64,000 nucleotides of DNA, from the NCBI GenBank assembly GCA_003151975.1, contig PLZD01000054.1, forward strand, positions 25,177-89,176. The letters run 5' to 3'. This document shows, piece by piece, positions 17,666 to 58,307 of the stretch (its first letter is position 1; the number at the start of each line of letters is the position of its first letter). The notes under the pieces were generated by a model, which saw only the letters and a list, made by a program, of their open reading frames with translations, was not told where the DNA came from and searched no databases. A program made the position numbers and the translations under genes. Source of the stretch: Elusimicrobiota bacterium (GTDB lineage: Bacteria > Elusimicrobiota > Elusimicrobia > UBA1565 > UBA9628).

Positions 17666-18843
<1,178 letters not shown>

Positions 18844-18849
18844 CTTCCT

Positions 18850-18859
18850 ATTATATAAT
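18850..18859. promoter_or_regulatory. Palindromic double -10 element serving trpB and the asparaginase-like gene
   Basis: ATTATATAAT is a perfect 10-bp palindrome. Read on the plus strand it gives TATAAT followed by six bases and the ATG at 18866; read on the minus strand it gives TATAAT followed by six bases and the GTG at 18843. Both genes would have leaderless transcripts and compete for one element. No clear -35 hexamer is seen on either side. Confidence 0.65.
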
Positions 18860-23648: not shown

Positions 23649-23652
<4 letters not shown>

Positions 23653-25025
23653 TGTCGTTCCGCCAAAGCCAGCGCGCGGCGCAAGGACAAGAGCTTGTTG
23701 AGGATCTCTTGGTATTCGCGCTCGGGGCTGGAGTCCGCGACGATGCCGGCGCCCGCCTGCAGGCGCGCGACGCCGTTCTGCAGGCCCATCGCGCGAATCG
23801 TGATGCACGAATCGAGATTGCCCGAGAAATCGTGATGGACGACAGCGCCCGCGTAGAAGCCGCGCGGCCGCGGCTCGAGGCCCGACAGAATCTCCATCGC
23901 GCGCACCTTCGGCGCGCCGGAAACCGTGCCCGCGGGATAAGACGCGGCGAGAGCCTCCCAGGCCGTCTTGCCTTTTTCCAACCGCCCCTCGACTTGGCTG
24001 ACGAGGTGCATGACATTGGGCAAACGCCGCACGCGCATGAGCTCCTTGACCGCGACGGTGCCTGGCGCGCAGACGCGGCCCAGGTCGTTGCGCCCGAGAT
24101 CGACGAGCATCAAATGCTCGGCGCGCTCCTTGGGGCTTCTCTTGAGCGCGCGTTCGAAATTCTTGTCGGCCGCGGGGTCGGCTCCGCGCGGGCGCGTGCC
24201 CGCGATCGGGCAATTAAGCGCGACGCCGTCTTCGACTTTGACCAGGCGTTCCGGAGAAGCCCCGATCAAATGCCGTCCTCCATCCTTTATCCAAAACAAG
24301 TAAGGAGGGGCGCCCAAGGTCCCCAAGGTCCGGCAGAGCAAAGCCGGCGAGGCCGAGGTCTTCACATGAAACATCTCGGAGAGCACCGCCTGAAAAATAT
24401 CACCCGCCCTGATGTGCTCTTTTAATTTTCTTACGGCGGTCATGAAGTCAGACTTGCCCATCGTCGGCTCGATGGCAGCCAGCTCCCTGGGCGTTACGAG
24501 AACTTCGGCTTTGCGCCGAGGAACGCGAGAGAGAATGCGCGACCACCGCTCGGCTGACTGCCGCGCCTTGGCGCCGCCCTTGATGGTCACAAACTCCGCG
24601 CGGTTGGAGTCCCGGTCGGCGACGACCATGCCGTCGCAGAGCATCATGAGGCCTTCCTCGGGCCACGCTTTTTTGGGCAAGCGTTCCAAATAACGGACGA
24701 TGTCGTAGTCGAGGTAGCCCACGGCTCCGGTCTCGAACGGCCTGGCGTTGCTCACCATGCGTGCCTCAGCCAGGCGCTTGCCCAGCGCCCAAAACGGATT
24801 GCCGGGGAAAATGTGTTTCCCGCGCGCCGTTTCGGCGACCAGCCGCCCGGACTTAATGCGCAGCGTCTCGAAGGGATCGATGCCGAGCAGCGCGACGTGC
24901 CTTGCGCCCTCGGCTTTCTCAAGCAAAAAGCCCCGCGCGCTGCCCGCCGCCTCGAGTGCCGCCGGCGCGTCGAAATCGGCGGCGCCGATAGAAATGCGTT
25001 CGACTTTGGCTCGCTGGGGGCTCAC
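23649..25025 (-). CDS. trpE: Anthranilate synthase component I
   Basis: Makes anthranilate from chorismate, first step of tryptophan synthesis. The 458-residue protein has the chorismate-binding core GDIFQAVLSEMF, PIAGTRPRG (Ala, as in TrpE; PabB has Lys), LVDLGRNDLGRV, GTVSGAPKVRAMEIL and YAGAVV. The N-terminal motif that is LLES in feedback-sensitive enzymes reads LLEK (Lys37), so tryptophan inhibition may be altered. The GTG start lies six bases after TATCAT, leaving no leader for an attenuator or T-box. It heads the trpE-trpG-kinase unit. Confidence 0.95.
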
Positions 25026-25061
25026 GGTCCTATGATACGAAAATGATAAACTCAGGATTAC

Positions 25062-25790
25062 ATGAAAGATGTGGGCATCTTAGGCGCCTTCCTCGCGGGC
25101 ATCGTCTCATTCTTGTCGCCCTGCGTGCTGCCCTTGGTCCCGGGCTACATCTCGTTCATCTCGGGCCTCTCGCTCGAGCAGCTCTCCAAAGACGCGGGCC
25201 GCGAGGATGTCATCAAGCGCGCGGGCTTGGGCTCGATTTTCTTCGTTCTCGGTTTCTCCTGCGTGTTCACGGCGCTCGGCGCGTCTGCCTCCGCCGTCGG
25301 CCGACTGCTTTCGGACTATATGCCCATACTCTCGAAGCTCGCGGGCGTACTGATCGTGCTCTTCGGCCTGCACACGAGCGGCGTCATGACGATCCGCTGG
25401 CTCTATTACGAAAAGCGAGTCTCGGCGGCGGGCGTGCCGCCATCATTGATGGGCGCGTTCCTGATGGGCCTGGCCTTCGCCTTTGGCTGGACGCCGTGCA
25501 TCGGGCCGATCTTGGCCGCGATACTCGCGATGGCCGCCACCGAGAAGACTGTCGCGCGCGGCGTGCTGCTGCTCTTCATTTACTCGATGGGTCTCGGCAT
25601 TCCATTCATCCTGACGGGCTTCGGCGTCAACGCCTTCTTGGGATTCTTCGCGCGCTACAAGCGCTACATCCGCTGGGGCGAGATCGCGGCGGGCCTTCTG
25701 CTCGTGCTCATCGGCGTGCTGATTTTCACGAATCGGCTGACCATGCTGGTTTCAATAATGCCGCAGTCCCTGCACCAATTCGAAAAATAA
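25062..25790 (+). CDS. ccdA: CcdA/DsbD-type membrane thiol transporter
   Basis: Carries electrons from cytosolic thioredoxin across the membrane to periplasmic thiol proteins. The 242-residue protein has six hydrophobic segments; the paired redox cysteines are Cys21 in LSPCVLPLVPGY and Cys146 in GWTPCIGP, each at the start of a helix with the family's prolines. CAGGA lies about six bases before the ATG. The TlpA-like gene follows four bases downstream, which is its likely partner. Confidence 0.93.
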   Translation: MKDVGILGAFLAGIVSFLSPCVLPLVPGYISFISGLSLEQLSKDAGREDVIKRAGLGSIFFVLGFSCVFTALGASASAVGRLLSDYMPILSKLAGVLIVLFGLHTSGVMTIRWLYYEKRVSAAGVPPSLMGAFLMGLAFAFGWTPCIGPILAAILAMAATEKTVARGVLLLFIYSMGLGIPFILTGFGVNAFLGFFARYKRYIRWGEIAAGLLLVLIGVLIFTNRLTMLVSIMPQSLHQFEK

Positions 25791-26349: not shown

Positions 26350-28995
26350 ATGCCGTCGACGCAAACCCTCCCCGACACCCCAGTCATGCGGCAGTGGCAG
26401 GAGCTCAAAAGCGCCTACCCGCACGCCGTTTTATTTTTTCGCCTCGGCGATTTCTACGAGATGTTCGGCGACGACGCCCGCACTTCCGCCCCGATCCTCG
26501 GCTTGGTCCTGACCTCGCGCCAGGACTTTCCGATGTGCGGCGTGCCCTTTCACAACAGCCAGCCCTACATCGCGCGCCTGCTCAAAGCCGGCCACAAGGT
26601 CGCCGTCGTCGAGCAGATGGAGGATCCCTCCAAGACCAAGAAGCTCGTGCGCCGCGAGGTCGTGCGAGTCATCACTCCCGGCACTATCGTAGAAGACGAG
26701 CTGCTCGATCCCGCTCTGACCAATTATCTGATCGCCGTCGAGCTCGACGTGGTCGGCTGGGGAGCGGCCGTGCTCGACGTTTCGACCGGCGAGTTTTGGG
26801 CGACGCAGGCCTTGAACGACCGCGGCTCGCGAAAACTTCTGGACTTGCTCGCGCGTGCTCGACCCGCCGAGGTGCTCGCCGCTCCGCACGCCTGCGGGTC
26901 GCTCAAGCTCCGCGAGGTTCTGCCGTCCAAGACTTGCCTGACGCCCTACGACGGCGCGCCCGAGATGGACAAGAAGCCCGGTTGGGCCAACGCTCCGGTC
27001 TGGATCAATCATCACCTGGCCGCGCGCGCGGCGCTCAAGTGCCGCCGCTACGTGACGGAAGCGCAGTTCCACCTGCGCGAACTGCCCGCTCCCCTTTATA
27101 AAGAGTCCACGACCGAGATGCAGTTGGACGAGACCGCCATCCGCACTTTGGAGCTCGTCGACTCGCAAGGCGGCGAGCGCAAGCACAGCCTCTGGGGCCT
27201 GCTGGACGGTTCGCGCACGCCGATGGGAAGCCGCCTGCTCAAGACCTGGCTCCTGCATCCCTCGATCGACTTGGCCGAGATCGAGCTCCGGCAGAATTGC
27301 GTCGAGGATCTTTTTAATCGCCCCGATTCGCGCGCGGAGCTCTCCGCGCTGCTGCGCGAATTTTCCGACTTGCCGCGCGTCACCAGGCGCCTCGCCACTC
27401 GCCAGGCAGGCCCGCGCGATCTCGCCGGCCTGCGGCACTCTTTGCTGGTCCTCCCGAAAGTGCAAGATTGGCTTTCTAAAACGGATTTCTGCTCGGGACT
27501 CGCGGTGCTCTCGACGACAATTCAGGAAGCGGCGACCGGTCTTTCGACCTGCGCCGCTCTGCTCGAAAAAGCTCTGGCCGACAATCCCCCCGCGCGGCTT
27601 TCCGAGGGCGGGCTCATCCGCTCGGGCTTTGACGCGGCGCTCGATGAGCTCAAATCCCTGCGCTCCGATTCCCAGGGCCATCTCTCGCGGCTCGAGGCAA
27701 GCGAGCGCACGGCGACCGGCATCGGCACCTTGAAGGCCGGCTACAACTCGATCTTCGGCTACTATTTCGAGGTCACCAAGACTCACTCGGCCAAGGTCCC
27801 CGCGCGCTACACGCGCAAGCAGACCCTGACCAACGCCGAGCGCTACATCACCCCCGAGCTGAAGGAGCTGGAAAATAAAATCCTCGGCGCCGAGGAGAAA
27901 ATCCTGCGTCTCGAAGCCCGCTTATTCGAAGATCTTAGGGAAGCGGTGCTGCGCGACCACGATGCCATTCTAAAATTGGCCGAGCTCGTGGCCCAACTCG
28001 ACGTCTTCAACTCGCTCGCCGAATCGGCCGCGATGCACGATCTCGTAAAACCCACGGTGGACTTGAGCCACGACCTCGTCATTGAGGAGGGCCGCCATCC
28101 CGTGCTGGCCGCGATACTTCCCTCGGGCCAGTTCGTGCCGAATTCGATCGCGCTCGATGGAGACTCCAAGCAGGTCATCGTGCTGACCGGCCCCAACATG
28201 TCGGGCAAGTCGACCTATCTGCGCCAGAACGCGCTGATCGCGCTCATGGCCCAAATCGGCTCCTTTGTACCGGCGAAGTCCGCGAAGATCGGCATCGTCG
28301 ACAAGATTCTCACGCGCATCGGCGCGCAAGACGCTTTGGCCGCCGGCGACTCGACCTTCATGGTCGAGATGAAGGAGACCTCGCACATACTGCGGACCGC
28401 AACGCCGCGAAGCTTGCTGATCCTCGATGAAGTCGGCCGCGGGACTTCCACTTTCGACGGCATCTCGATTGCTTGGGCCGTGCTCGAGCATTTAAACGCC
28501 GCTTACGGGCCGAAGGGCTCCTCCGCTACGCCGTCGGCCGCCCCCGCCGGAGGGAGCGCCCCGCGCGGTCCCCGCGTGCTTTTTGCGACGCACTATTTCG
28601 AGCTCACCGAGCTCGCGCACCGCTTGCCGGGTGTGGTCAACTGCAACGTCGAGGCCAAGGAGTGGACCAACGGCGCTGGTAAGACCGAGGTCGTTTTTCT
28701 TCATAAGATTTCCGACGGGCCGGCCGACCGCTCTTACGGAATTCATGTGGCGGCACTCGCGGGCCTGCCCGCGCCCGTGCTCGCGCGCGCGCAAGAAATT
28801 CTCGCCAATCTCGAGAACGAATCGGCGTCAGGCCGAATGACAAGCTCGCGCGTTCCCGCGGCAGTGCCGAATTCTCCCGAACTCCCGCTTTTCGAGGAGA
28901 ATTCGGTGCTTCAAACTTTGCGCCTGCTCAATCCCGACTCCATGACGCCGCTCGAGGCGCTCTCCGCCCTCTGCGAGCTCAAGAAAAAGCTCTGA
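26350..28995 (+). CDS. mutS: DNA mismatch repair protein MutS
   Basis: Recognises mismatches and small loops. The 881-residue protein has the mismatch-reading Phe35-x-Glu37 motif in GDFYEMFGDD, the connector, lever and clamp regions, Walker A GPNMSGKS (residues 614-621), Walker B LLILDEVGRG (Asp693-Glu694) and the FATHYFEL motif. A Gly/Ser/Ala/Pro-rich insert of about 22 residues (720-741) sits in the ATPase domain and is unusual. TAAAAT lies eight bases before the ATG. The mutL ATG overlaps the stop (TGATG), so the pair is coupled. Confidence 0.97.
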   Translation: MPSTQTLPDTPVMRQWQELKSAYPHAVLFFRLGDFYEMFGDDARTSAPILGLVLTSRQDFPMCGVPFHNSQPYIARLLKAGHKVAVVEQMEDPSKTKKLVRREVVRVITPGTIVEDELLDPALTNYLIAVELDVVGWGAAVLDVSTGEFWATQALNDRGSRKLLDLLARARPAEVLAAPHACGSLKLREVLPSKTCLTPYDGAPEMDKKPGWANAPVWINHHLAARAALKCRRYVTEAQFHLRELPAPLYKESTTEMQLDETAIRTLELVDSQGGERKHSLWGLLDGSRTPMGSRLLKTWLLHPSIDLAEIELRQNCVEDLFNRPDSRAELSALLREFSDLPRVTRRLATRQAGPRDLAGLRHSLLVLPKVQDWLSKTDFCSGLAVLSTTIQEAATGLSTCAALLEKALADNPPARLSEGGLIRSGFDAALDELKSLRSDSQGHLSRLEASERTATGIGTLKAGYNSIFGYYFEVTKTHSAKVPARYTRKQTLTNAERYITPELKELENKILGAEEKILRLEARLFEDLREAVLRDHDAILKLAELVAQLDVFNSLAESAAMHDLVKPTVDLSHDLVIEEGRHPVLAAILPSGQFVPNSIALDGDSKQVIVLTGPNMSGKSTYLRQNALIALMAQIGSFVPAKSAKIGIVDKILTRIGAQDALAAGDSTFMVEMKETSHILRTATPRSLLILDEVGRGTSTFDGISIAWAVLEHLNAAYGPKGSSATPSAAPAGGSAPRGPRVLFATHYFELTELAHRLPGVVNCNVEAKEWTNGAGKTEVVFLHKISDGPADRSYGIHVAALAGLPAPVLARAQEILANLENESASGRMTSSRVPAAVPNSPELPLFEENSVLQTLRLLNPDSMTPLEALSALCELKKKL

Positions 28996-45832: not shown

Positions 45833-46387
45833 CTACGGCCTGGAGTTTTCGACAATCCAGCGGGCCGCGTTGGCCAGATCCGCGAAAGTTTTCGCGGGTT
45901 TGATCCGGTACGAGCCGTCCTTGCCGCCGTAGCCGGTGCGCACCAGAAGTCCTTTGATCCCCGCGCGCTTGGCCGTCAACAGGTCGGTCGTCGTATCGCC
46001 GACGAAAAAAGACGCTTTCAGATCGAGCTGGAATTTTTTCGCCGCGCGGCGCACCATGGCCTGCCCCGGCTTGCGGCAGGCGCATTTTCCGCCGAAATCG
46101 GGATGATGCGGGCAGTAATAGACGGCGTCCAGGATCGCGCCCTGGGCCTTGAGCATCACTTTGAGCTTGCTCGTGATCGCGGAGAGCCCTTTGAGCGAAA
46201 GCATGCCGCGCGCAATCGCGCTCTGGTTGCTGATGACGATGACTTTGTAGCCCGCGCCTCGCAGGGCGGAGATCGCGCGGGCCGACCCGCGCAAAAGCTT
46301 GAGCGAGCTTGCCTTGACGAGGTAGTCGACCTCATGGACGATGACTCCGTCCCGGTCCAGGAACACCGCTTTATTATGGCGCGCCAT
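45833..46387 (-). CDS. gmhB: D-glycero-D-manno-heptose 1,7-bisphosphate 7-phosphatase
   Basis: A 184-residue HAD phosphatase with DRDG (Asp11, Asp13), SNQSAIARG, the zinc-binding loop CPHHPDFGGKCACRKP and FVGDTTTDLLTAKRAG. The zinc loop and length are those of GmhB/histidinol phosphatase types; the adjacent heptose genes favour GmhB. The ATG lies six bases after TAGAAT in a palindrome shared with the divergent GT-C gene. It heads the ten-gene glycan unit on the minus strand. Confidence 0.9.
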   Translation of the reverse strand: MARHNKAVFLDRDGVIVHEVDYLVKASSLKLLRGSARAISALRGAGYKVIVISNQSAIARGMLSLKGLSAITSKLKVMLKAQGAILDAVYYCPHHPDFGGKCACRKPGQAMVRRAAKKFQLDLKASFFVGDTTTDLLTAKRAGIKGLLVRTGYGGKDGSYRIKPAKTFADLANAARWIVENSRP

Positions 46388-46393
46388 CGCGAT

Positions 46394-46403
46394 ATTCTAG
46401 AAT
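46394..46403. promoter_or_regulatory. Palindromic double -10 element serving gmhB and the GT-C gene
   Basis: ATTCTAGAAT is a perfect 10-bp palindrome. On the plus strand TAGAAT is followed by ATTCTC and the GTG at 46410; on the minus strand TAGAAT is followed by ATCGCG and the ATG at 46387. Both spacings are six bases, as at the trpB element. Confidence 0.65.
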
Positions 46404-46409
46404 ATTCTC

Positions 46410-48485
46410 GTGAAGCGGCCCGCGCTGTACCTGTCGATTGCCGCCTCCGAGCTCGCCTTGCTTGCCGTCTATTTCGCGCGCACGGGACTGCTGGTCACGC
46501 CCGCGCACTTTTTTTCCACCTTCACGCTGCGGCCGTTCCACGGCGTCTTCATCCCCATGCGGTTTATCGCGGTCTGGGGCCTTTCCTTCTCGGGGGCCGT
46601 GATCGCGGCGCTTTGGCTCATACTCGCCGTCAGCGCCGGCGCCGCCGCCCTGGGAGCAGTCGGCCTGCCCGCTCAAAGCCCGCTCGAGAACACCGTGGTA
46701 GCATTGGGCCTGGGCCTCGGCGGCCTGGCCTTGGCCGTTTTTTTTCTCGCGCAGCTTAAAGTTTGCACCCCGACCGCCGCGCTGGCCTTGGGCCTGCTGA
46801 TGCTTGCGGCAAGCGCGGCGCGGTGGCGGCGGCTTTACCTCAGACCGCCCAGCTGGCGGAGCCTTGCCGACGATAACCGCCTGCCTCTCTTTGCCGCGAG
46901 CGTCTTGGCTTTGGTCCTGCTGGCCTTCCACTTCATCGGCGCGCTGGTGCCGCCGTCGGGATTTGACGAGATGGACTACCAACTCTCGCTGCCCAAGCTC
47001 TACCAACTCAACGGCGGCTTCGTGCCGACGCCCTTCTCGCATTTCTCCTTCATCCCAAAGAACGTCAATATGCTCTTCCTGCTGGGGCTCGTGTCGGGCG
47101 GACCGATCGTCGCTAAGTTTCTGGCGCTTAGCATCGCATTGCTCGCGTGCCTTGCGCTCTATGCTTTCGCCGCGCCCCGGCTGGGCGAGCGCCCGGCGGC
47201 TTTCTCGGCGCTGACCTTCTTTTTCCTGCCGGTCATCGGCAATCAGTTCCGCGTCGCGGCCCCCGACATGGGGATCGCGTTTTTCGAGCTCATCGGCTTG
47301 TTCCTCATCCTGCAATGGCGCGACGACCACCAAATCCGCCGGCTTTTGCTTGCCGGTGTTTTTTGGGGCTTGGCCTTGGGCTCGAAGTACTCGGCCTTCC
47401 CCGATTTCGCCGCGTGCCTTCTGGGATTGTGCTGGCTTTGCAGAAAAGACGGCGCCAAGAACAACCTGCGCAATCTTGCGCTCTTCGCGGGAACCGCCGG
47501 CCTGGTCGTCTCGCCGTGGCTCATCAAGAATTGGTGGGAGACGGGCAATCCCGTCAATCCGCTGCTCAGCACGCTGATCAAGAGCAGCAACTTCTACTTC
47601 GCGGGGCAGTACAAGTCCACGGTGGACTACGCTCACGGCCTTGGCATCGAGAATTATTTCCCCATCAAAGGCCCGCTCGATGTTCTGCTCCTGCCCTGGC
47701 GCTTGATCGTCGCCCACAATGATTACAACCATGACATGGGGCCGCTCTGGCTGCTGCTCGCGCCCTTGGCCCTTTTGAGCGCGGGCCGCAAAACCCCCGC
47801 GTGGCTTAAATCCGCGCTCGTTTTTTGCGCGGCCTACTGGTTCATTTGGCTCTGCGGCAGCATACACATGACGCGCTACTTCACGACGGGCCTGGCGCTC
47901 ACGAGTCTCGCCGCGGGCTGGCTGATCTCCGCGGTGCCCGAGCGCGGCGGCTGGCGCTGGGCGCTGCTCATCCCCGTGCTGTTCGCGTGGTTCCAGCAGT
48001 CGGCGCGCATGATCGAGATCCAAAACGACTACAAAAAGCCGTGGGGCTATCTCTCGGGACAAAGCTCGGTCGGCGCGTATCTCGGAGCGATCCTGGTCGA
48101 CAGCCCGTATGACGCCGTCGAGTTCATCAACGAGACCGCCCCGAAGAACGCCCGCGTGCTGGTCTTCAACGAGTTCCGCACCTTTTACCTCGACCGCGAT
48201 TTCCTAGCATCCACGCCCTGGGACCACGACTATTGGCACGAGATGATCCGCGAGAGCGCCACCCCCGAGGAACTCCTATCCCGGCTCAAAGCGCGCGGCA
48301 TCACTTACTTTCTCTGCAACGACAGCTACCGCCTGCACCAGACCGGCATGCCCCTCTCGGATGAATGGACGGCGGAAGACCTGGCCCGCGAGAAGAGTTT
48401 GCTTTTGCACGTCATGAAGCAGGCCTATCGCGGCGGTCAGGGGGCTTGGGTCGCCGTTATTCGCGACCAAGTTCATTATTGGTAG
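46410..48485 (+). CDS. GT-C superfamily membrane glycosyltransferase-like protein
   Basis: A 691-residue protein with about 12 membrane helices and a soluble C-terminal part from about residue 560. The first large loop carries GFDEMDYQLSLP with acidic residues expected for catalysis, then SHFSFIPKNVNMLF. It is a distant paralogue of the protein at 38350-40329 and is divergent from gmhB. GTG start with a predicted leaderless mRNA. Likely acts on the same surface glycan. Confidence 0.82.
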   Translation: MKRPALYLSIAASELALLAVYFARTGLLVTPAHFFSTFTLRPFHGVFIPMRFIAVWGLSFSGAVIAALWLILAVSAGAAALGAVGLPAQSPLENTVVALGLGLGGLALAVFFLAQLKVCTPTAALALGLLMLAASAARWRRLYLRPPSWRSLADDNRLPLFAASVLALVLLAFHFIGALVPPSGFDEMDYQLSLPKLYQLNGGFVPTPFSHFSFIPKNVNMLFLLGLVSGGPIVAKFLALSIALLACLALYAFAAPRLGERPAAFSALTFFFLPVIGNQFRVAAPDMGIAFFELIGLFLILQWRDDHQIRRLLLAGVFWGLALGSKYSAFPDFAACLLGLCWLCRKDGAKNNLRNLALFAGTAGLVVSPWLIKNWWETGNPVNPLLSTLIKSSNFYFAGQYKSTVDYAHGLGIENYFPIKGPLDVLLLPWRLIVAHNDYNHDMGPLWLLLAPLALLSAGRKTPAWLKSALVFCAAYWFIWLCGSIHMTRYFTTGLALTSLAAGWLISAVPERGGWRWALLIPVLFAWFQQSARMIEIQNDYKKPWGYLSGQSSVGAYLGAILVDSPYDAVEFINETAPKNARVLVFNEFRTFYLDRDFLASTPWDHDYWHEMIRESATPEELLSRLKARGITYFLCNDSYRLHQTGMPLSDEWTAEDLAREKSLLLHVMKQAYRGGQGAWVAVIRDQVHYW

Positions 48486-48494
48486 AATATTCTC

Positions 48495-49088
48495 ATGAAG
48501 ACCCCCAAAGACAAGGCCACCCTTTTCGTCGCCTCGACGCTTTTCAAGGGCAAGAAGCTCGTCGACAAAGTCAAAAACGCCGGCAAGCCGGCCGACAAGA
48601 CCTCTGCGGCCGCCGGCAAGGTCTACGATTTCACGATGAAGACCATCGACGGCAAGGACAAGCCGCTCTCCGACTACAAAGGCCGGGTCCTTTTGATCGT
48701 CAACACGGCGTCCTTGTGCGGATTTACGCCGCAGTACGATTCGCTCGAAGCCCTCCATGAAAAATATAAGGAGAAAGGTTTGCGCGTGCTGGGATTTCCC
48801 GCAAACGAATTCGGCGCGCAGGAACCCGGCGGTGATGCCGAGATCAAGGAGTTCTGCCGCACGCGTTTCGGCGTCAAGTTCGACTTATTCTCGAAGATCG
48901 TGGTGAAGGGCCCCGGCATTCACCCGCTCTACAAGTTCCTGACGACCGAGTCGGGCTTCAACGGCGAGATCGGCTGGAATTTCGCCAAGTTCCTCGTCGG
49001 CCGCGACGGCACGATCGCCGCGCGCTTCGGCCCCGAGGACGATCCGATGGGCAAGAAGATCATCGGCGCCGCCGAAAAGCTGCTCTAG
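48495..49088 (+). CDS. Glutathione peroxidase-family thiol peroxidase with N-terminal extension
   Basis: A 197-residue peroxidase. The active cysteine (no selenocysteine) is Cys75 in NTASLCGFTPQY; FPANEFGAQEPG and WNFAKFLVG supply the Gln/Trp/Asn partners. A second cysteine in EFCRTRFGVKF fits the thioredoxin-dependent subgroup. The first 40 residues are a Lys/Ala-rich extension absent from most relatives; no clear signal peptide. The ATG lies six bases after TAGAAT, using the same 12-base string as the upstream gene. Confidence 0.9.
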   Translation: MKTPKDKATLFVASTLFKGKKLVDKVKNAGKPADKTSAAAGKVYDFTMKTIDGKDKPLSDYKGRVLLIVNTASLCGFTPQYDSLEALHEKYKEKGLRVLGFPANEFGAQEPGGDAEIKEFCRTRFGVKFDLFSKIVVKGPGIHPLYKFLTTESGFNGEIGWNFAKFLVGRDGTIAARFGPEDDPMGKKIIGAAEKLL

Positions 49089-54845: not shown

Positions 54846-56791
54846 CCGTGCAGTCCGCGGTACGCGGTCTCCATCATCGCCGGCTGCACGATCTCCTCTG
54901 AAACCTTGGCCGACTTCGCCAGAATGCCGACGAACTTCCTCATGCGCCGCACCGAGGCGCCGAGGTCGCCGAGGCTGTGGCCGGTCAGTTTGGCGTCGAT
55001 GATCGTGTCCTCGCCTTCGCCGTGCGAGCGCAGGGCCAAGAGTCCATCGAGGACGAACGGCGTGACCGGGCCTTTGAAGCCGGCGATCCTATAGCGCACG
55101 ATCTCGATGTACGGGGCGACGGCAAACGTCGGCACCGGCCGCCGGACGGCCGCCTCCGCCGGCGGAGGCGGCAAGATGGGCGGCTTCTCGGGTTTGGTCT
55201 CGGCGCGCTGCAGCTCGGCGTCGGCCAAGAGCAGGCTCGGCGTGATGACGGAGACCGGCACGTTCCATGAGATGTTCTGCACGGCGGCGTCCGCACCCGC
55301 GCCCACGATGTTGTTCATGAGGTCCAGCGGCGTGCCCACGAGATCCAAGTCGCGCACCAAGGTGAGCGCCCCGGTCTTGGCGTCGACGAGATAAAGCATC
55401 TCGGGCATGAGCCGGATGGAGCCGTGCCCGCCGGTCCCCTGTTGCTGGACGAAGCGCCTGAGCTTTTTCACCCAGAGGCCGTAAGGCTTGCCGCGCCGCA
55501 GGCACTCCTTGCGCAGCGCCTCTAGCAGCTCTTTCTCGGGCCGGGGAGAACGGGAGGTCAGAAAAATATTTCCCGGCGTTCCGACCGGGACGTAGCCGGG
55601 ATAGGACCGCCCGTGGCCGTTGGAACGGTGAAAGCCGATGACCGGATAGCGCGAGAGCAAAAATCCCTTGAGCACGCCGTCCTTGATGAGCTCGGTCCGC
55701 TGGGGCGCGATGCCTTGGTCGTCGAAATCGTAATGGCCGATCAGCGGCGTTCCCTCGAACGCCTCGCGGGTCGGATCGTCGACCAAGGAGAAGTCTTCCG
55801 GCAGAACGCGCTTATCGAGCTTGCCGCGGAAGATCTGCGCGCCGCCGGGATCGCGCTGCTCCTCGCCGGACAGCCGCAGGCCGAAGGCCAGCACCACGGC
55901 GCCCGCGACAGACGGATCGATCAGCGTAGGTGCGCTGAAGGGCGAGGTCGTCTGCGCCACTTTGAGCGCCGAAAGATCGCCGACCATCTCGCGGGCTTGG
56001 CGCGCGAGTTCGGTTTCGGAGGGCAGACCTTCGGGCGCTACCGCCGTGAAGCGCCGCAGAGCGTACAGGCGCAGGCCGTCGGTCGAGATGTCGACGGCCG
56101 AGAGTTCGAGTTCGGCGAGCTGGGATCCGTGATCGACGGCAATCCCGTCGGAGCCGCGCACGCGCGACAAAATACCGCGGCGGCGCACGGTGGACGCGGC
56201 CTCGAGCAGGCCCGGATAGGCGCGGAAGGCGCGGCCGCCCGCGGCGCAAAGGCTCTCCAGCATGCCCGCCGGCCAAAGTGCCGCGGGAGGATCCACCCGG
56301 CGCTCCCGCGGCTCTTCCTTTGATAGGTCGTCGGTGTCGTACTCGGTCTTTCCGCGCGAGACGCGCAGGGCCTGCTTGCGCAGGAAATCCGCCGAGGCGT
56401 TCTTATAGGCGCCGTCAAACATCAGCCAGAGCGCGTGACGCAGGGAAAGCTCGTCGTCCTGGAAGCTCCCGGCGACCGCCGCGTAGCCCGACGGCGCTGA
56501 AACGGGATGATTGTCGAAGGCAAAATCCCCCACGCGCAGGTCCGGCACGAGCAGGCGCTGGCGCGAAGAAGATTCGACGGACATCGCGCCCATGGCGCAG
56601 CGCCGCTCGAAGGTTTCGACATCGATGGCGGCCAGGCTTGCGAAATAGGGCGGCGGGTAGCCGGGCTCATCCAAGCTGTTGACGGCGCGGTGCAGCTCGG
56701 CTGACATCGCGCGCTCGAGGCCCGGCGCGGACTCGGCGTTTGCCGCGGCCGCGGACATCAGGCCCGCGGCCAGGATCGCGAGGAGACGCAT
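54812..56791 (-). CDS. Exported TldD/PmbA-like protein lacking the metalloprotease motif
   Basis: A 659-residue member of the TldD/PmbA group with a signal peptide (residues 1-19), so it acts outside the cytosol, unlike classical TldD. Family landmarks are SVDDP-like LVDDPT, GHYDFDDQGI, LSRYPVIGFHRSNGHGR and the C-terminal beta region. Where active relatives carry HExxxH the sequence is VLAFGLRLSGE (residues 300-310): both histidines and the glutamate are gone. A tail from about residue 540 (Pro-rich PPILPPPP then helical) is extra. The frame extends upstream to 57199 but inside glpK. Probably a non-catalytic binding or structural protein. Confidence 0.82.
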   Translation of the reverse strand: MRLLAILAAGLMSAAAANAESAPGLERAMSAELHRAVNSLDEPGYPPPYFASLAAIDVETFERRCAMGAMSVESSSRQRLLVPDLRVGDFAFDNHPVSAPSGYAAVAGSFQDDELSLRHALWLMFDGAYKNASADFLRKQALRVSRGKTEYDTDDLSKEEPRERRVDPPAALWPAGMLESLCAAGGRAFRAYPGLLEAASTVRRRGILSRVRGSDGIAVDHGSQLAELELSAVDISTDGLRLYALRRFTAVAPEGLPSETELARQAREMVGDLSALKVAQTTSPFSAPTLIDPSVAGAVVLAFGLRLSGEEQRDPGGAQIFRGKLDKRVLPEDFSLVDDPTREAFEGTPLIGHYDFDDQGIAPQRTELIKDGVLKGFLLSRYPVIGFHRSNGHGRSYPGYVPVGTPGNIFLTSRSPRPEKELLEALRKECLRRGKPYGLWVKKLRRFVQQQGTGGHGSIRLMPEMLYLVDAKTGALTLVRDLDLVGTPLDLMNNIVGAGADAAVQNISWNVPVSVITPSLLLADAELQRAETKPEKPPILPPPPAEAAVRRPVPTFAVAPYIEIVRYRIAGFKGPVTPFVLDGLLALRSHGEGEDTIIDAKLTGHSLGDLGASVRRMRKFVGILAKSAKVSEEIVQPAMMETAYRGLHGQGWPEDGPKP

Positions 56792-56816
56792 ATCGGTTCT
56801 ATGATACCATAGCGTC

Positions 56817-58307
56817 ATGGCGCTCAAATCCGCCGTGCTGGCCATCGACCAAGGAACGACCGGCAGTGCCGCCGCGGTAATGGATGAGGACGGCAAGGTT
56901 CTTGCGCACGTCAAGCAGGAGTACCGCCAGATTTTCCCCAAGCCCGGCTGGGTGGAGCACGACCCCGAGGATATTTGGAACTCGGTGCTCGCGACCGCCC
57001 GCAAAGCGCTGGCCAAGGCCGCGATCAAACCCGCGAGGCTCGCGGCCATCGGCGTTACCAACCAGCGCGAGACGACCGTACTTTGGGACCGCCGGTCCGG
57101 TCGCCCGGTCCACAACGCGATCGTCTGGCAGGATCGCCGCACGGCGGACTTCTGCGCGCAGATGAAGTCCCGTGGCCTGGAGCCTGAAGTACGCGCCAAG
57201 ACGGGGCTCGTGCTCGATCCCTATTTCTCGGGGACCAAACTACGCTGGCTGCTCGACAACGGCGCCTCCGCCGCCGCGCGCCAAGGCCGCCTGGCCTTCG
57301 GCACCGTCGACAGCTTTCTGTTGTGGCGGCTCACCGGGGGCGCGGTTCACGCCACCGACGCATCGAACGCCTCGCGCACTTTGCTCATGGATTTAAAATC
57401 GCTTTCTTGGGACCCAGAGCTTTGCGCGATGCTGAAGATTCCGTCCTCGGTCTTGCCCGAAATCCGCCCCAGCATCGGCGTTTTTGGCGTGACCAAGTCG
57501 GTCCCCGGCCTGCCCGATGGAATTCCCATCTCCGGCATCGCCGGCGACCAGCAGGCCGCGCTCTTCGGACAGGCTTGCTTCGACAAAGGCGAGGCCAAGT
57601 GCACGTTCGGCACGGGAAGCTTTCTGCTCATGAACATCGGCGACCGGCCCAAACCGAGCCGCTCGGGCTGCCTGACCACGGCGGCTTGGGTCTGGAAAGG
57701 CCGGGCGACCTACGCTCTCGAGGGCTCGGCCTTCATTTGCGGGGCCGCCGTGCAGTGGCTGCGCGACGGGCTCAAACTGCTCGAGAAAAGCTCGGATGTG
57801 GAGGCCTTGGCGCGTTCGGTCAAGGACGCGGGCGGCGTGCAGTTCGTCCCCGCGCTGACCGGCCTCGGCGCTCCCTATTGGGACCCGGCAGCGCGCGGGC
57901 TCATCTGCGGGCTGACGCGCGGCACCACCTCCGCGCACCTCGCCCGCGCCGCGCTCGAGGGCATGGCCATGCAGAACGCCGACCTGCTGCTGGCGATGCA
58001 GAAAGACGTCGGCTACAAGCTCAAGTCGCTCAAGGTCGACGGCGGCGCGTGCGCCAACGACTTGCTGATGCAATTGCAGGCGGATTATCTCGGCGCCTCC
58101 TGCATCCGGCCAAAGGTCATCGAGACCACGTCTGCGGGCGCGGCCTTCATGGCGGGCCTGGGCGTCGGGCTTTGGCCGGATCTCGACTCAGTGCGCAAGG
58201 TCTGGAGAAAAGACAAAGTGTTCCGGCCGAAGATGGCCGCGACCGATCGGTCGCGCCGCCGCCTCGCGTGGTCGGAGGCCGTCGGCCGCGCGCGCGGCCT
58301 CAAATGA
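56817..58307 (+). CDS. glpK: Glycerol kinase
   Basis: Phosphorylates glycerol to sn-glycerol 3-phosphate. The 496-residue FGGY kinase has DQGTTGSAA, TNQRETTVLWDRRSGRPVHN (substrate Arg-Glu), WQDRRT, FGTGSFLLMN and the C-terminal KVDGGACANDLLMQ. The usual glpF, glpD or glpR are not adjacent. The ATG lies six bases after TACCAT. The methyltransferase ATG overlaps its stop (ATGA), which starts a four-gene coupled unit. Confidence 0.94.
   Translation: MALKSAVLAIDQGTTGSAAAVMDEDGKVLAHVKQEYRQIFPKPGWVEHDPEDIWNSVLATARKALAKAAIKPARLAAIGVTNQRETTVLWDRRSGRPVHNAIVWQDRRTADFCAQMKSRGLEPEVRAKTGLVLDPYFSGTKLRWLLDNGASAAARQGRLAFGTVDSFLLWRLTGGAVHATDASNASRTLLMDLKSLSWDPELCAMLKIPSSVLPEIRPSIGVFGVTKSVPGLPDGIPISGIAGDQQAALFGQACFDKGEAKCTFGTGSFLLMNIGDRPKPSRSGCLTTAAWVWKGRATYALEGSAFICGAAVQWLRDGLKLLEKSSDVEALARSVKDAGGVQFVPALTGLGAPYWDPAARGLICGLTRGTTSAHLARAALEGMAMQNADLLLAMQKDVGYKLKSLKVDGGACANDLLMQLQADYLGASCIRPKVIETTSAGAAFMAGLGVGLWPDLDSVRKVWRKDKVFRPKMAATDRSRRRLAWSEAVGRARGLK

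Follow-up and report, generated by a model that had tools for sequence, protein, structure and literature searches.

An overlapping, symmetric -10 element as a probable doubly leaderless bidirectional promoter between a GmhB-like phosphatase gene and a GT-C glycosyltransferase gene of an Elusimicrobiota bacterium

How can two divergent genes be expressed from an intergenic space of 22 bases? The question is raised by a junction in a 64,000-nucleotide stretch of DNA from an Elusimicrobiota bacterium, the whole of which was analysed and is referred to here as the window. By direct reading, the gap between the two genes is CGCGATATTCTAGAATATTCTC. They are as follows.

45833-46387, minus strand: gene for a GmhB-like HAD-IIIA phosphatase of 184 aa (TIGR01656 above its cut-off; PRK08942 at 164.7 bits, under the cut-off of 178)
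46410-48485, plus strand: gene for a GT-C type membrane glycosyltransferase (PMT_2) of 691 aa, identified by Pfam

The GmhB-like gene adjoins a heptose-kinase-like gene, which also scores below its cut-off, and the nearest relative of the GmhB-like protein is found in an Elusimicrobia bacterium. The gap contains a symmetric element whose parts, the first two of which were read directly from the sequence, are listed below.

46392-46405, no strand: perfect palindrome of 14 bp, ATATTCTAGAATAT
46394-46403, within the 14-bp palindrome: core, ATTCTAGAAT
46398-46403, plus strand: -10 hexamer TAGAAT of the GT-C gene, six bases from GTG, in the TANNNT-N6-start layout that is enriched in the genome
46394-46399, minus strand: -10 hexamer TAGAAT of the GmhB-like gene, six bases from ATG (match at 46385-46399, minus strand, in a scan of the window)
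46410, plus strand: predicted transcription start on the G of GTG, giving a leaderless mRNA, 7 bp past the -10
46387, minus strand: predicted transcription start on the A of ATG, giving a leaderless mRNA, 7 bp past the -10

The sequence-only reading of this DNA had described a perfect 10-bp palindrome with six bases to the start codon on each side. Its place and spacing are correct, but the palindrome extends over 14 bp. On the left, six bases (46388-46393) separate the core from CAT (46385-46387), the reverse complement of the minus-strand ATG, and on the right another six (46404-46409) separate it from the GTG at 46410. The TA at 46398-46399 is common to the two opposite-strand hexamers, so that the core at 46394-46403 consists of overlapping -10 elements in opposite orientations, the defining arrangement of symmetry-based bidirectional promoters. 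Both the palindrome and the 22-bp gap arise because two near-consensus TAnAAT elements overlap at TA (ATTnTAnAAT on the plus strand). A second perfect palindrome, AGAATATTCT (46399-46408), overlaps the 14-bp one, and as a result of it ATATTCT occurs twice at a 10-bp interval (46392 and 46402).

The optimal transcription start lies 7 bp downstream of the -10 (PMC12825309). From the -10 positions, the two starts would be 23 bp apart, within the 7-25 bp between divergent transcription starts that delimits the symmetry-based class, and both predicted +1 positions are purines. As expected for leaderless genes, neither GGAG nor GAGG, as Shine-Dalgarno sequences, is present in ATATTCTC before the GTG or in GAATATCGCG before the ATG. 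The best -35 matches for the two -10 elements are 3/6 and 2/6, which random positions equal, and a two-hexamer promoter scan of 46000-48700 returned none; as neither -10 has a convincing -35, activity may be weak.

We consider it likely, on the evidence of the DNA itself, that this element acts as a minimal, doubly leaderless bidirectional promoter belonging to a known class. RNA polymerase holoenzyme would recognise TAGAAT on either of the two strands, binding in the corresponding orientation, and would initiate 7 bp past each -10, at the first base of each start codon (A of ATG for the GmhB-like gene, G of GTG for the GT-C gene). The products would be two leaderless mRNAs with starts 23 bp apart. 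If both -10 elements are used, the central TA that they share would admit only one polymerase at a time. The earlier suggestion of a bidirectional -10 at 46385-46412 gains support from TAGAAT on both strands and from the excess of core sites and their placement between divergent starts, described below.

The mechanism is not new, as symmetric bidirectional promoters and their 23-bp class are already known. In Escherichia coli, bidirectional promoters most commonly have starts 18 bp apart, with 10 and 23 bp as further common distances (PMC12825309). The present element resembles the symmetry-based promoters of Warman, Grainger and colleagues (2021-2026) in its overlapping opposite-strand -10 elements and its predicted 23-bp distance (PMC12825309), but differs in that each predicted +1 position falls on the start codon of a protein gene; neither PMC12825309 nor PMC10268837 uses the word leaderless. 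It likewise resembles the TA-led leaderless genes, in which TANNNT occurs about 12 bp before the start (Zheng 2011, PMC3160421; the Deinococcus -10 motif of Zhong 2025, PMC12340547): here, too, the first T of TANNNT is 12 bp before the start codon and there is no Shine-Dalgarno sequence. However, two-way use of one -10 was not found in those two articles, from which the word 'divergent' is absent, and PMC3160421 has no Elusimicrobi entry. In Mycobacterium tuberculosis, closely juxtaposed divergent promoters are called common, and prpD and Rv1129c are adjacent divergent genes both of which have start-codon transcription starts, although a single shared -10 is not described for them in the accessible part of that article (PMC3898074). 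EcoRV-type restriction-modification operons also have overlapping, mutually exclusive divergent core promoters, but the EcoRV C transcript has a leader, and it is a C protein that exerts control (PMC5333194). In the literature searched, bidirectional -10 symmetry and the fixed -10 spacing of leaderless genes were not found joined.

Leaderless spacing is enriched in the source genome. From a 764-kb sample, in which our own simple codon-score caller provided 660 genes and their starts, we scored 621 genes, for which 1,850 candidate starts were considered, or about three each. In 69 of the 621 genes, TANNNT is separated from a candidate start by exactly 6 bp, compared to 37, 29, and 30 at 7, 8, and 9 bp; other spacings account for 5 to 23 genes each, averaging about 15 over 10-29 bp. 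The window itself contains 17 instances of TANNNT-N6-ATG, against 2.9 expected. This enrichment of TANNNT about 12 bp before starts, observed across the sample, is the known TA-led leaderless signature as described in PMC3160421 and PMC12340547.

The window also contains other junctions with overlapping -10 elements, as follows.

18850-18859: sister element ATTATATAAT, between trpB (minus strand, GTG 18843) and an asparaginase-like gene (plus strand, ATG 18866), with the same 22-bp gap
25031-25037: TATGATA, between trpE (minus strand, GTG 25025) and ccdA/DsbD_TM (plus strand, ATG 25062), the -10 elements overlapping fully; 18-bp class
56801-56810: imperfect relative ATGATACCAT, between a TldD-like gene and glpK, the -10 elements sharing TA, with spacings of 9 and 6

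For the asparaginase-like gene the caller picked a start at 18833, and 18866 is used here. The trpB element differs in sequence from the GmhB-like/GT-C element and shares its geometry, as had been pointed out, and the TldD-like/glpK junction (56789-56819), previously called an imperfect version, does belong to the same class, its starts being 9 and 6 bases away. The trpE/ccdA element can be assigned to the 18-bp class of symmetry-based promoters (PMC10268837, as far as its accessible text goes); in this region (23649-25062) the trpE side is predicted to be leaderless and the ccdA side has a short leader with AGGA. Symmetric -10 elements thus occur at both trpE and trpB in the window. By reading, four junctions in the window have overlapping -10 elements (trpE/ccdA, trpB/asparaginase-like, GmhB-like/GT-C, and TldD-like/glpK), and the codon-score caller places nine divergent junctions there; this clustering was seen after the fact and is given no interpretation. 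The sample has 71 divergent pairs, and in one further junction among them, on C14, a gap no wider than 25 bp is combined with -10 elements that are both 5-9 bp from a start. We considered and rejected the possibility of a foreign contig, as the tetranucleotide use (0.996) and GC of C44 agree with those of the other sampled contigs; the first two 20-kb chunks of C44 score lower (0.938), and neither palindrome element is located in them.

The sequence-only reading had taken the identical geometry of the two 22-bp elements as a sign of a recurrent promoter design rather than chance. However, given a 6-bp interval between the -10 and a leaderless start, and a TANNNT that can overlap its own reverse complement at TA, identical geometry is to be expected, and it is no independent sign of a special design. 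Shuffled sequence would give 0.05 sites of the symmetric core ATTNTANAAT in the window, which has three: the two palindrome elements and one intragenic site. An occurrence of ATTCTAAAAT at 27967 was set aside as it is inside a gene. In its strict form (start-N6-ATTNTANAAT-N6-start), the arrangement is found twice in 4,644,201 bases, both times in the window, and its backward-read control is found zero times; the genome search that had been proposed, for this form between starts 22 bases apart, thus yielded no further cases in 4.64 Mb. The generic form ANNNTANNNT has six sites against two for backward controls, and the four extra sites all lack a frame of 80 codons or more on at least one side. 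A generic form with a gap of 17 has five sites in the source genome against three for backward controls, and three of the five are flanked on each side by an open frame of 80 codons or more: one has an opposing frame (not the ccdA frame) with no Pfam match, one has a TTG-started frame of 114 codons, and one is a Sel1/nucleotidyltransferase junction.

The core alone is over-represented in the whole genome, with 28 sites against 7 for TAANATNTTA, 13 for AATNTANATT, and 5 for backward AATNTANATT; these controls are three 10-mers of the same composition, and the 20 sites of the first two were located while the 5 of the third were only counted. Of the 28 core sites, 6 are flanked by divergent starts (within 60 bp), 14 precede a single start, 6 are intragenic, and 2 are other; the 20 control sites comprise 0 divergent, 11 one-sided, 4 inside genes, and 5 other. 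Since 11 of the 20 controls also occur upstream of one start, nearness to a single start is not telling, and it is divergent placement that sets the core apart (6/28 versus 0/20; Fisher 0.034). Of 8,493 A/T-rich 10-mers in the sample, 3.9% are in the divergent class, relative to which 6/28 gives p 6e-4. Both exact cases in the genome were known ahead of this test; without these two window cases, 4/26 sites are divergent (p 0.017 versus A/T-rich 10-mers, Fisher 0.12 versus the 20 controls). The other four divergent core junctions have Pfam matches on both sides: P-type ATPase/ABC, UvrD/DUF748, Sel1/nucleotidyltransferase, and methyltransferase/glycosyltransferase, with core-to-start distances of 15/12, 23/12, 3 or 51/7, and 10/8 bp, respectively. 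As these differ from the 6/6 seen in the window, most of the four would have short leaders. The Sel1/nucleotidyltransferase junction has two symmetric -10-like elements 54 bp apart (L209 1501-1523, L285 1501-1510). Recurrence of the design therefore holds for the cores, which are found at 28 sites, 6 of them divergent, but the exact 22-bp geometry is confined to the two window cases.

We also looked for the element in relatives. In 38 genomes of the family, ATTNTANAAT-N6-RTG has 97 matches against 11 for the backward control. Across the phylum, 51 of 294 genomes contain the strict form (59 sites versus 32 control sites), and in the organism's own family (34 genomes) there are 8 sites in 7 genomes versus 0 for the control. 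Examination of 31 strict-form loci, including the two in the window, identified 11 where each side has a frame of 80 codons or more; 2 of the 11 look like one site in sister species. Three of the 11 pairs were compared to Pfam, and both partners have Pfam support in two of them, murB/ChaN-like (same order) and Nudix/DinB-type polymerase (same family); in the third, the short partner of a beta-propeller gene has no Pfam family match. A relative from another family (G035, 396 kb) contains no pair with a gap of 22 or 17 and both -10 elements at 6 bp. In the phylum of G302, an Actinobacteria bacterium, a TANNAT version is found in 45 of 296 genomes (54 sites versus 18 control sites); 8 of the 50 sites inspected are open on both sides or run off the stretch, and the two pairs tested, cation efflux/proC and hisA/Trp-repressor family, have Pfam matches on both sides. 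A conserved 22-bp site in that phylum was rejected as a candidate: its seven look-alikes, 5 one-sided and 2 open on both sides, are upstream of apparently one conserved gene.

The GT-C gene has six close orthologues among 57 genomes. Four of these keep TA(G/A)ACT-GAAATC-GTG, with the -10 exactly 6 bp before GTG, and the remaining upstream sequence differs; in the fifth, the start used is a later one, accompanied by a Shine-Dalgarno-like stretch, and in the sixth CAGAAT is found at 8 bp. The orthologous loci examined showed neither the palindrome nor a GmhB-like partner, and where flanks are readable the neighbours are other genes. The leaderless promoter of GT-C is thus kept in four of the six orthologues, whereas the palindrome and the partner are not. 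Synteny as a footprint was also tried and rejected, as no GT-C-like divergent neighbour was apparent by eye in the five best GmhB matches.

The GT-C gene is also bounded by a repeat of twelve bases.

46398-46409, plus strand: first copy of TAGAATATTCTC, directly before the GTGAAG of the GT-C gene
48483-48494, plus strand: second, exact copy of TAGAATATTCTC, directly before the ATGAAG (ATG 48495) of a glutathione-peroxidase-like gene

The TAG of the second copy also serves as the GT-C stop codon. No further copy is present in the 764-kb sample, and among 652 adjacent gene pairs the best identity between upstream 12-mers is at most 9, except for the GT-C/peroxidase-like pair, at 12. The simplest account that this suggests is insertion of the GT-C gene into an older GmhB-like/peroxidase junction with duplication of the 12-bp promoter. 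With so little DNA needed, a promoter of 12 bp could be copied along with its gene.

The repeat could instead reflect a shared operator, AGAATATTCT, and more generally the 14-bp palindrome or the overlapping AGAATATTCT could be bound by a dimeric regulator, with any promoter role being secondary. The perfect dyad symmetry over 14 bp, together with a palindromic AGAATATTCT upstream of two neighbouring genes, is what such an operator would look like, but the trpB element has only its -10 positions in common with this one, ATTCTAGAAT is found at just two places in 4.64 Mb, the other being inside a gene (L282), rather than at several promoters, and within the 764-kb sample AGAATATTCT is found solely at the two neighbouring sites. 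Pfam identifies neither flanking gene as a regulator, and we regard an operator as distinctly improbable. A single functional direction, the opposite half of the palindrome being incidental, would fit the 14 of 28 core sites that are upstream of one gene only; it is improbable here, as TAGAAT is exactly 6 bp from the start of a Pfam-supported gene on each side, with a purine at both predicted +1 positions.

Chance overlap of two ordinary leaderless promoters, which would arise without selection, is compatible with the bidirectional promoter that we favour. At a gap of 17 or 22, TANNNT on one strand needs only one more matched base for the other strand, the overlap fixing 4 bases rather than 6, and the expected two-sided share given one side is about 10%. 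The confinement of the strict form to the window and the small excess of the generic forms over their backward controls also agree with chance. On the other hand, four of seven cases at gaps of 17 and 22 are two-sided, although two of these are the window cases and the remaining two, at a gap of 17, involve an opposing frame with no Pfam match and the TTG-started frame of 114 codons. Over-representation of the core and its position between divergent starts likewise speak against chance, which we judge rather unlikely.

Returning to the doubly leaderless bidirectional promoter, symmetry makes a -10 bidirectional and leaderless genes fix its distance from the start, and together these predict preferred gaps of 22 and 17 bp between divergent genes. 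Leaderless bidirectional promoters may accordingly form a distinct, recurrent type of junction, with a 10-bp symmetric -10, both start codons as +1, a gap of 22 or 17 bp set by promoter geometry, and 12-bp promoters that can be copied with a gene, as if GT-C had been inserted; we put this forward tentatively, as a possibility somewhat short of even. For the lineage, probably the Elusimicrobiota, the findings point to leaderless expression, of which a limited search of the literature gave no report. The gap prediction could be examined in any species with mapped starts, and the arrangement would help to correct start-codon calls.
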